DNA from: an uncultured Actinomycetes bacterium
Lineage (GTDB): Bacteria > Actinomycetota > Acidimicrobiia > Acidimicrobiales > RAAP-2
NCBI GenBank assembly: GCA_903875425.1
Contig: CAIQWC010000029.1
Coordinates: 1-44,093, forward strand
Direction: 5' to 3'
DNA: 44,093 nt
Position numbers and translations under genes: made by a program
In this document: one piece after another, positions 25,955 to 28,610 of the stretch
Numbering within the stretch: the first letter of the stretch is position 1
Layout: the number at the start of each line of letters is the position of its first letter
The notes under the pieces: model-generated
Told to the model about the DNA's origin: nothing
The model's input: only the letters and a program-made list of their open reading frames with translations
Databases searched by the model: none

Positions 25955-26272
25955 ATGGGTGAGCAATTCACGCGCAAACTCGCGGCCGACCTGCCTGACA
26001 AGGCTCTGGGTCTCATTGATACCGTTGTCGATACGATCAATGACCGCGTCGTCCGCCCCGTCATTCTGGTTGCGAGGGGCATCGTCTTTGGCATCTTGAT
26101 CGCCACCTTCTTGGTGGTCGCTGCGGTGGGCACTGCGATCATGACCTTACGAATTCTTGATGTGTACGCTTTCCCCACTGCTATCTGGGCCTCATACTTG
26201 GTTCTCGCTGGCATCTTCAGCCTCATTGGCCTGATTCTTTGGGCTAAGCGTGGCGCAACTACTACCGAATAG
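25955..26272 (+). CDS. Small membrane protein (105 aa), hypothetical
   Basis: I do not recognise a named family. An amphipathic N-terminal helix (FTRKLAADLPDKALGLIDTVVDTINDRVVRP) precedes two hydrophobic segments (~36-65 and ~72-97) and a short KRGATTTE tail. It sits between the degV gene and trxB in the same direction, with 31 and 7 bases to its neighbours, so it is probably part of the operon. The layout resembles small phage-holin-like or 'DUF' proteins near trxB in actinobacteria; no function is assigned. Confidence 0.7.
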   Translation: MGEQFTRKLAADLPDKALGLIDTVVDTINDRVVRPVILVARGIVFGILIATFLVVAAVGTAIMTLRILDVYAFPTAIWASYLVLAGIFSLIGLILWAKRGATTTE

Positions 26273-27315: not shown

Positions 27316-27642
27316 ATGGCCGACATCATCACCCTTTCCGATGCCACCTTCAATGAGACCATTCAAAGCTCAGATGTCCCCGTATTGGTGGACTTTTGGG
27401 CCGAGTGGTGCGGTCCTTGCAAGATGATTGCCCCCATTCTCGAAGAGATTGCCGCTGAGCACGACGGCAAAATCCAGATCGCCAAACTCAATATTGACGA
27501 GAACCTCAACGTCACCCGAGACTTCGGCGTGATGAGTATCCCGACGCTCTTGCTCTTCAAGAACGGTGACGTCGCGACTCGCATGGTTGGTGCTAAGCCC
27601 AAGGGCGCCCTTGTTCAGGAGCTCAGCCCATACCTGGACTGA
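27316..27642 (+). CDS. trxA: Thioredoxin
   Basis: A 108-residue thioredoxin. The active site WCGPC (31-35) sits in VLVDFWAEWCGPCK, with the cis-proline MSIPTLLLFKNG block later. It donates electrons to the Bcp-type peroxiredoxin and other targets. The start ATG 27316 follows AGGAG by 6 bases; the open frame further upstream has no similarity. The stop TGA at 27640-27642 shares bases with the codon I take as the start of the cwlM-like gene. Confidence 0.97.
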   Translation: MADIITLSDATFNETIQSSDVPVLVDFWAEWCGPCKMIAPILEEIAAEHDGKIQIAKLNIDENLNVTRDFGVMSIPTLLLFKNGDVATRMVGAKPKGALVQELSPYLD

Positions 27643-28610
27643 ACCACCTCCCCCTCTCCGAAGGTGCCACGGGGCCAGACGTCAGTGATCTCCAGGATCG
27701 CCTGACGCGTATTGTCACGTCTCCACTCAGCGATACTCCCGGTACCTTTGGGGCCTCCACGAGAGCAGCGGTCGAGGCCTTTCAGCGCCAACGCGGACTT
27801 CGTATTGACGGCATTGTTGGTCGCCATACCTGGTTAACGCTGGTCGAAGCTGGACTCTCACTTGGTGACAGACAGTTGTATCGTGCTCACCCCTTACTCC
27901 GTGGTGATGATGTGGCCGATCTACAGACGCGGCTGTGCTCACTCGGTTTTGATACCGGTCGAGTTGATGGAATCTATGGCGATAATACGGCTACGGCCGT
28001 GGCTGAGTTCCAACGCAATCTCAAGTTGGCGGTAGACGGCATCGCTGGGCGAAATACGCTTGAGGAACTAACTCGTATCACGACTCAAAAAGAAAATCCC
28101 TGGCTGGTAACGACCGTGAGGGAACAAGCCAATCGATACCAATCCTCAGTTGGTTTAGAAGGATTTCGTATAGGTATTATTTCTACAAACACCTTATCGG
28201 CGGTTTCCTCGGCGATGGCCACATACCTTGGCGATGCTGGCGCGATCGTGATTCCCGTGGCTGGCCACGCTGAGTCCGAACAAGCCAGCGAGGCGAATCA
28301 ATCCAATATTGACCTACTCCTGGCGCTCCACAGTAGCGAGCAGACTCGCGTGGCCCACTATCGGAGTTATTCCTACGAGTCCGTAGCCGGCCGCGAGCTC
28401 TCCGCTTTAGTAGCGACCGCAATCAGCACGGTAGATGGCATCCATGCTGTTGCTGAGGGTATGTACCTCTCGCTACTGCGCGAAACAAGCATGGTGGCCA
28501 TTGTGGTTGAGCTCGTTGCGCTTGACCTTGGCTTAGAGTTGGCCGAGGCCATCGCTAGCGCCATCACCTCAGCGATGATTGCTTGGGCCGCTGGCTCGTC
28601 ACGGTCATAG
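27639..28610 (+). CDS. cwlM: CwlM-like peptidoglycan-binding protein, apparently inactive amidase
   Basis: The frame has two PG_binding_1 repeats (about 7-62, with AAVEAFQRQRGLRIDGIVG; and 84-145, with GDDVADLQTRLCSLGF and DGIYGDNT), then an amidase_3-like region (158-323). This order, and its place just after trxA, matches actinobacterial CwlM, which in mycobacteria regulates MurA rather than cutting peptidoglycan. The DPGHGG-type zinc motif is absent: the equivalent stretch reads GIISTNT, leaving only LALHSS and VVEL as remnants. There is no ATG, GTG or TTG in frame before TTG 27876, which would delete the first repeat. I start at CTG 27639, which overlaps the trxA stop (CTGA). ATA 27630, 8 bases after AGGAG, is another choice. 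Confidence 0.75.
   Translation: MNHLPLSEGATGPDVSDLQDRLTRIVTSPLSDTPGTFGASTRAAVEAFQRQRGLRIDGIVGRHTWLTLVEAGLSLGDRQLYRAHPLLRGDDVADLQTRLCSLGFDTGRVDGIYGDNTATAVAEFQRNLKLAVDGIAGRNTLEELTRITTQKENPWLVTTVREQANRYQSSVGLEGFRIGIISTNTLSAVSSAMATYLGDAGAIVIPVAGHAESEQASEANQSNIDLLLALHSSEQTRVAHYRSYSYESVAGRELSALVATAISTVDGIHAVAEGMYLSLLRETSMVAIVVELVALDLGLELAEAIASAITSAMIAWAAGSSRS

Follow-up and report, generated by a model that had tools for sequence, protein, structure and literature searches.

A cwlM-like gene that appears to start at a CTG codon overlapping the trxA stop in an uncultured Acidimicrobiales genome

Genes and features of the locus

The window analysed here is a stretch of 44,093 nucleotides (contig CAIQWC010000029.1 of assembly GCA_903875425.1) from an uncultured bacterium of the order Acidimicrobiales, whose draft genome amounts to 1.61 Mb in 46 contigs and is 97.7% complete. 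The genes were recognised by eye from their translations and follow the order trxB-trxA-cwlM, with parB and parA next on the opposite strand and dnaA beyond. The features of the trxA-cwlM junction and of the cwlM-like gene are collected in Table 1.

Table 1. Features at the trxA-cwlM junction and in the cwlM-like gene (positions in the window)
Feature	Position	Strand	Basis or remark
trxA, thioredoxin, C-terminus ...SPYLD, TGA stop	27316..27642	+	Pfam Thioredoxin, E 1.9e-33; sequence
AGGAG, Shine-Dalgarno-like, within Gln-Glu codons of trxA	27617..27621	+	Sequence
ATA, second-choice start, 8 nt after AGGAG; equals the ATT site of other lineages	27630..27632	+	Sequence, comparison
CTG, favoured cwlM start; LPL motif (opening repeat 1) 9 nt downstream	27639..27641	+	Comparison
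CTGA, overlap of putative cwlM start and trxA stop	27639..27642	+	Also in L002, L057, L058 and L059; ATGA in L060
cwlM-like gene, 323 aa from the CTG start	27639..28610	+	Pfam, alignment
Peptidoglycan-binding repeat 1	27654..27857	+	Profile residues 3-70 match 5nm7; Pfam, two stretches
TTG, first canonical start of the cwlM frame, downstream of repeat 1	27876..27878	+	ORF list
Peptidoglycan-binding repeat 2 (PG_binding_1)	27900..28070	+	Residues 85-141, numbered from 27648
Amidase_3-like domain without first zinc motif	28167..28589	+	AlphaFold model matches Amidase_3-type folds in PDB
GIISTNT in place of the presumed DPGHGG-type zinc loop	28173..28193	+	Sequence, alignment

The cwlM frame follows a TAA at 27594-27596, is open over 27597-28610 (337 codons) and closes with a TAG at 28608-28610. 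An earlier note on this DNA had described it as one open frame with two peptidoglycan-binding repeats, the first of them lying ahead of any ATG, GTG or TTG, and both points hold: Pfam reports PG_binding_1 in two stretches (E 8.2e-35), and the first such codon is the TTG at 27876. ORF calling with ATG, GTG and TTG only therefore gives a gene of 244 aa at 27876-28610, from which repeat 1 is missing. The trxA stop occupies 27640-27642 and is overlapped by two bases by the CTG, and the AGGAG lies 8 nt from the ATA and 17 nt from the CTG. In the interval between a DegV-like gene (by eye) and trxB, a small ORF at 25955-26272 gives a weak match to Phage_holin_3_6 (E 0.0038).

Survey of related loci

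The loci surveyed were the best matches and not a random draw, and only part of the matches listed was fetched; the named relatives are mostly Acidimicrobiaceae, Acidimicrobiales or uncultured actinobacterial MAGs. Junction positions were counted from the LPL-type motif which opens repeat 1 (27648 in the window). Among the 145 loci of the first set, all with both genes, cwlM is in frame -1 relative to trxA in 101 and in a different frame in 44; trxA ends in TAG or TAA in 80 of these 101 and in 13 of these 44, where TGA prevails. The enlarged set of 229 loci, less 6 without trxA, 1 with N and 58 duplicates, left 164 junctions, distributed over the frames as -1 (110), 0 (18) and +1 (36). No ATG, GTG or TTG was found from 14 nt upstream of the trxA stop to the motif in 69 of the -1 loci. 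These 69 no-start loci comprise 25 with ATT 8 nt after AGGAG, 8 with CTG overlapping TGA (the window included), 3 with ATA 8 nt after AGGAG, 9 with another near-cognate codon in the linker only, and 24 with none. Two loci, L083 and L084, have very similar junctions, one of them a base longer than the other, so that they fall in different frames, by either a recent indel or a draft error.

In the merged set, 247 non-redundant junctions gave 103 canonical starts, 75 CTG (scored if it lay no earlier than the trxA stop and preceded the motif by two codons or more), 29 ATT after AGGA(G), 2 ATA and 38 with neither, two of the last (L102 and L264) having an ATT without an exact AGGA. A draw from the phylum gave a match in 207 of 246 genomes, and the best 30 loci were examined, L268 being left out for a misplaced motif; 18 of these 30 lie outside the order and have trxA upstream, and each of the 18 shows a canonical start at the motif or ahead of it. 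Among the matches listed, the literature search returned no paper dealing with the start codon of cwlM in this group of bacteria.

The CTG codon in three genera

The cwlM gene appears to start at the CTG at 27639, a very rare start codon, which the earlier note had offered as one plausible start and which the comparison of relatives now favours. In the same genus, for which one other genome (G001) was available, locus L002 of that genome (CwlM 71% identical) has the same open frame, the same CTGA overlap and the same ATA, and its last nine trxA codons and stop are identical to those of the window. A base error confined to the window is unlikely for this reason; a further locus, L150, comes from the same genome as G001 and is hence no third witness. 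The CTG stands at -9 in both the window and L002, which by itself proves little, because a TGA stop before a gene in the -1 frame yields NTG free. As far as sequence comparison goes, the weight for the CTG start rests on two other genera, g10 and g7.

Genus g10 belongs to the same family as the window and is the largest genus of that family among the matches listed; 71 of its loci were fetched and one duplicate dropped. CTG stands exactly at -9, the window position, in 55 of the 70 non-redundant loci, at -12 in five more and at -6 in one. The only other Leu codon seen at -9 is one TTG (in L373), itself a canonical start, and in the body of the g10 genes CTG makes up 566 of 2036 Leu codons. A variable residue follows the CTG (N 16, D 12, I 8, others), and since the flanking residues vary it is the codon and not the peptide that is kept. 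In relation to trxA, the 59 g10 loci scored as CTG starts have cwlM in frame -1 (43), 0 (14) and +1 (2); their CTG lies from -1 to +15 relative to the trxA stop and overlaps it as CTGA (offset -1) in six. The 14 frame-0 loci have an in-frame trxA stop just upstream; therefore translation begins between that stop and the repeat, barring read-through. A canonical start is present in 5 of the 70 loci, two of which keep the CTG as well, and 6 of the 70 have neither. Without a canonical start, L320 and L371, and L322 and L372, carry ACG at -9 or ATT at -12, which are possible start-codon swaps.

Genus g7 is the next nearest by identity among the matches listed. In its four loci with a TGA stop the overlapping codon is CTG in three and ATG in one, and its two loci with a TAA stop have ATG or GTG at +11 instead.

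The ATA codon and the ATT lineages

Translation may alternatively begin at the ATA at 27630, which would add three residues; we consider this unlikely. The earlier note had named this codon for its position 8 bases after the AGGAG, and that position stands: it is a good Shine-Dalgarno spacing, the A is also retained in L002, infC of the window genome likely starts at ATA (see below), and the site coincides with the ATT of those no-start lineages whose trxA ends in Phe. The candidacy of the codon itself is weakened by the relatives, as the site is unconstrained in the no-start loci with a Tyr-ending trxA (15 changes, rank 38 of 41), genus g7 has GCA, CTA, CCA or TCA there, and g10 uses CTG.

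In the ATT lineages trxA ends in Phe-Leu, and an A before the Phe codon, which makes ATT, is present in 25 of 29 no-start loci against 0 of 12 loci with a canonical start in the -1 frame and 0 of 14 in other frames; a looser ATT rule gave 25/29 against 0/13 and 0/17. With five loci of one more family added, ATT is found in 30 of 34 Phe-ending no-start loci (3 GTT and 1 TTT being the rest) against 0 of 16 others. A conserved start other than ATG, GTG or TTG, as expected of a rare-start gene, is thus seen in this ATT and in the CTG of g10. The ATT sits 8 nt after an AGGAG inside trxA, and the five added loci as well as L216, L220, L227 and L228 have a trxA stop further downstream and still retain the ATT, after Glu, Gly or Ser codons. 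In genus g11 a GTG overlaps the stop in three loci whose trxA ends in TGA, and two whose trxA ends in TAG have ATT. The Fisher p for ATT is 1e-11, which, like all counts here, ignores relatedness; in a tree test of ATT against a missing canonical start, seven independent pairs gave 3.2 the same way, 0 opposite and 3.8 equal, a number of pairs too small for significance at 0.05.

The third bases of the Shine-Dalgarno codons show 1 and 2 changes in the no-start Phe set (median 9), against 5 and 8 in the other Phe loci and 3 and 5 in the no-start Tyr set. An AGGAG 8 nt before the site occurs in 52 of the 69 no-start loci and also in 24/41 and 23/54 controls, because AGGAG encodes Gln-Glu.

Frameshift, TTG and assembly error

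A -1 frameshift towards the trxA end would give a TrxA-CwlM fusion, a route that the earlier note had allowed and that we now regard as very improbable for the window. It would account for the -1 frame in 101 of the 145 first-set loci, and in 61 of the 62 where the stop and the motif are no more than 20 nt apart; constraint on the last trxA codons is also stronger in the -1 loci, and an AGGAG lies upstream. A strong argument against it is that g10 keeps the CTG in all three frame relations, which a -1 frameshift cannot explain. In L080 and L081, moreover, a -1-frame stop immediately precedes the ATT, the RNA folds spanning the junction are unremarkable (z -0.01 and 0.31), and synonymous divergence further upstream in trxA is not reduced. 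The earlier note had seen no slippery site at the end of trxA, and inspection by eye agrees, with no slippery codon pair in the last 14 trxA codons. The combination of a fixed -1 frame and a slippery site that marks a programmed -1 frameshift was not found, the slippery site in the window being judged by eye.

A separate candidate, a coding overlap in the -1 frame of trxA, is not claimed. That frame runs without a stop through the last 77 codons in all 28 loci of the Tyr no-start set, against 6.1 expected by shuffles; openness is also high in the other-frame control (25/42 against 12.0) and lower in the ATT set (10/20 against 7.0), and synonymous divergence is 0.29 there and 0.31 outside.

We give scarcely any credence to a start at the TTG at 27876, the first canonical start and the likely choice of a gene caller, which would leave repeat 1 untranslated: this repeat is conserved as protein in the 23 aligned proteins, with invariant residues such as G6, G9, V12, R18, L19, D54 and G55. 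That an assembly error hides a canonical start is practically negligible as an explanation, for although the window comes from a draft genome in 46 contigs, the junction is the same in the other genome of the genus and a canonical start is missing in 65 of the 70 g10 loci as well.

Loci without a recognised start

The lineages with a Tyr-ending trxA have no recognised cwlM start. Here trxA ends in TAC CTG TAR, with a GTA overlapping the stop in most, and no near-cognate codon was found at any constrained place of this junction. The 38 loci of the merged set without a recognised start lie in the -1 frame in 34 cases despite varied linker lengths, which suggests, without proving it, that translation is entered at or before the trxA stop. 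Our tentative suggestion for the Tyr lineages is that ribosomes enter from the trxA stop, either by initiating at the GUA over UAG or UAA or by shifting to -1 or making a short hop at CUG-UAR, the latter giving a TrxA-CwlM fusion; GUA initiation would be a first guess by analogy with the GTC and GTT starts of sigR. The -1 frame may also persist in these lineages by descent, being the commonest frame where it is unneeded too.

Two other starts were considered and set aside. A GUA or AUA start 8 nt after the AGGAG in the Tyr lineages was suggested by a purine as first base in 21 of 34 loci against 13.7 expected (p 0.009) and was rejected, as this does not differ from the other groups (p 0.32) and the site is fast-changing. 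An internal start at NTG-GTG in the WCGPC motif is unproven; no Shine-Dalgarno was seen there by eye, and the Trp-Cys codons force the GTG.

The encoded protein

The product belongs to the CwlM type: it has the peptidoglycan-binding repeats, an amidase fold with a degenerate zinc site and no secretion signal, only CTG AAC CAC being read from the sequence ahead of the repeat 1 motif. PG_binding_1 is found in all 23 aligned proteins. The Amidase_3 score of the window protein in Pfam is below threshold (13.2 bits, cut-off 27), and 21 of the 23 proteins, the window not among them, match Amidase_3 at E 0.01. The AlphaFold model of the window protein (mean pLDDT 79.6, pTM 0.51) matches amidase structures in the PDB with E from 2e-06 to 9e-05, Rv3717 (4m6h) included, and also the peptidoglycan-binding domain of SleB (6tci, E 1e-03).

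The zinc-motif region does read GIISTNT, as the earlier note had it, in place of a motif that we take to be of the DPGHGG type, and this is nearly general in the aligned set and not special to the window: the first zinc loop is without His in 22 of the 23 proteins, the exception being L030 with GHPGG. The third zinc-ligand His is kept in three of the 23 (the window, as ALH, with L002 and L043), none of the 23 has the first-loop and third-place His together, and Glu 288 is invariant among them. The low-scoring amidase domain of the window is thus one that keeps the third-place His, which most others have replaced, often by Arg.

The mycobacterial CwlM (Rv3915), in the available portion of PMC4946905, likewise has peptidoglycan-binding repeats and an amidase-type domain with lost zinc ligands, and carries in addition a C-terminal tail that is phosphorylated by PknB and acts as a phospho-switch on MurA. 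The 23 aligned proteins end 319-333 residues past the start of repeat 1, and the window protein stops shortly past the last amidase helix. Judged by length alone the tail appears to be missing here, unlike in mycobacteria, and therefore the mycobacterial phospho-switch on MurA cannot be assumed, although the genome encodes MurA and two ORFs with PASTA domains. Of the regulatory role as in mycobacteria proposed in the earlier note, the degenerate zinc site is in agreement and the PknB-switched tail is not; the protein is CwlM-type without being a PknB-switched CwlM, and is probably a cytoplasmic, non-enzymatic regulator.

The gene neighbourhood is also alike, since the mycobacterial cwlM follows trxB and trxC. 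The start codon in M. tuberculosis is ATG, unlike the CTG favoured here, and excerpts of the same source (PMC7527780) describe post-transcriptional control, aconitase binding an element in the 5′ coding part of cwlM; translational control of CwlM dosage would therefore not be out of character.

Proposed translation of cwlM and its meaning

We put at about three in four the probability that cwlM is a full-length gene starting at the CTG at 27639, where ribosomes terminating on trxA re-initiate, with low output under IF3 control, and that its product is a non-enzymatic regulator. The start codon in this reading is supported by comparison, and from it we infer the re-initiation, the low dosage, the IF3 control and the regulatory role. 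Ribosomes finishing trxA would re-initiate at the CUG with fMet-tRNA, and weakly; the AGGAG inside trxA would at best keep the ribosome nearby. Re-initiation is the simplest route because this AGGAG, at 17 nt, lies beyond the normal distance and the CTG overlaps the trxA stop. According to excerpts of PMC6728339, overlapping genes can be translationally coupled by termination-reinitiation, and a 4-nt stop/start overlap is shared with the window; the overlaps described there are ATGA and TGATG, and here it is CTGA.

The poor codon would make CwlM a small fraction of the TrxA output and subject it to start-codon discrimination by IF3. As quoted in PMC11497404, the output from a CUG start in E. 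coli is 0.86% of that from AUG, and CUG makes up 0.024% of bacterial start codons. That a weak start is kept throughout a genus speaks for low output being under selection, and rare starts kept at nearly the same place in many relatives suggest that the cells deliberately make little CwlM.

The closest parallel is sigR of Streptomyces, another actinobacterial gene with a conserved rare start and a regulator whose dosage matters. In the accessible part of PMC5472188, the sigR start is GTC in 32 of 34 species and GTT in two, is repressed by IF3, and leads to overproduction when made canonical. The sites differ, as sigR has an extended AGGAGGTG site and the CTG of cwlM overlaps an upstream stop.

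A second parallel is infC, which likewise has a conserved rare start codon, ATT in E. coli and ATC in Streptomyces (same source). ATA or ATC was read by eye at the expected start in 28 of the 28 infC loci found (30 genomes searched), more upstream starts being possible: it is ATA in all eight genomes of the window's genus (g1) and g7, and ATC or ATA in the other families viewed (L230-L258). In L250 an ATG stands two codons further upstream, and in the window genome the frame is open for 75 codons upstream of the ATA. Because infC reads ATA or ATC at the expected start, near-cognate starts are likely in use in these genomes, and IF3, which polices them, is present. Whereas infC is autoregulated, cwlM would be a target that does not belong to the translation machinery.

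If IF3 does limit CwlM, translation fidelity and cell-wall synthesis would be linked, and two products in unequal ratio would come from the thioredoxin operon. The same gene, with CTG, ATT, TTG, GTG or ATG near the trxA end depending on the relative, also offers a natural series of start strength against dosage, and the CTG-started genes would be cut short by gene callers that accept only ATG, GTG and TTG.

Two minor observations were made on RNA and leader features. In infC of the window genome (L230, 1240), a short leader ORF ends in a TAG that overlaps the ATA as ATAG. In the 5′ coding part of the window's cwlM, a hairpin lies at about 27680-27707, some 40 nt downstream of the junction (fold of 27639-27758, z -2.27), in the one fold computed here that was better than ordinary.
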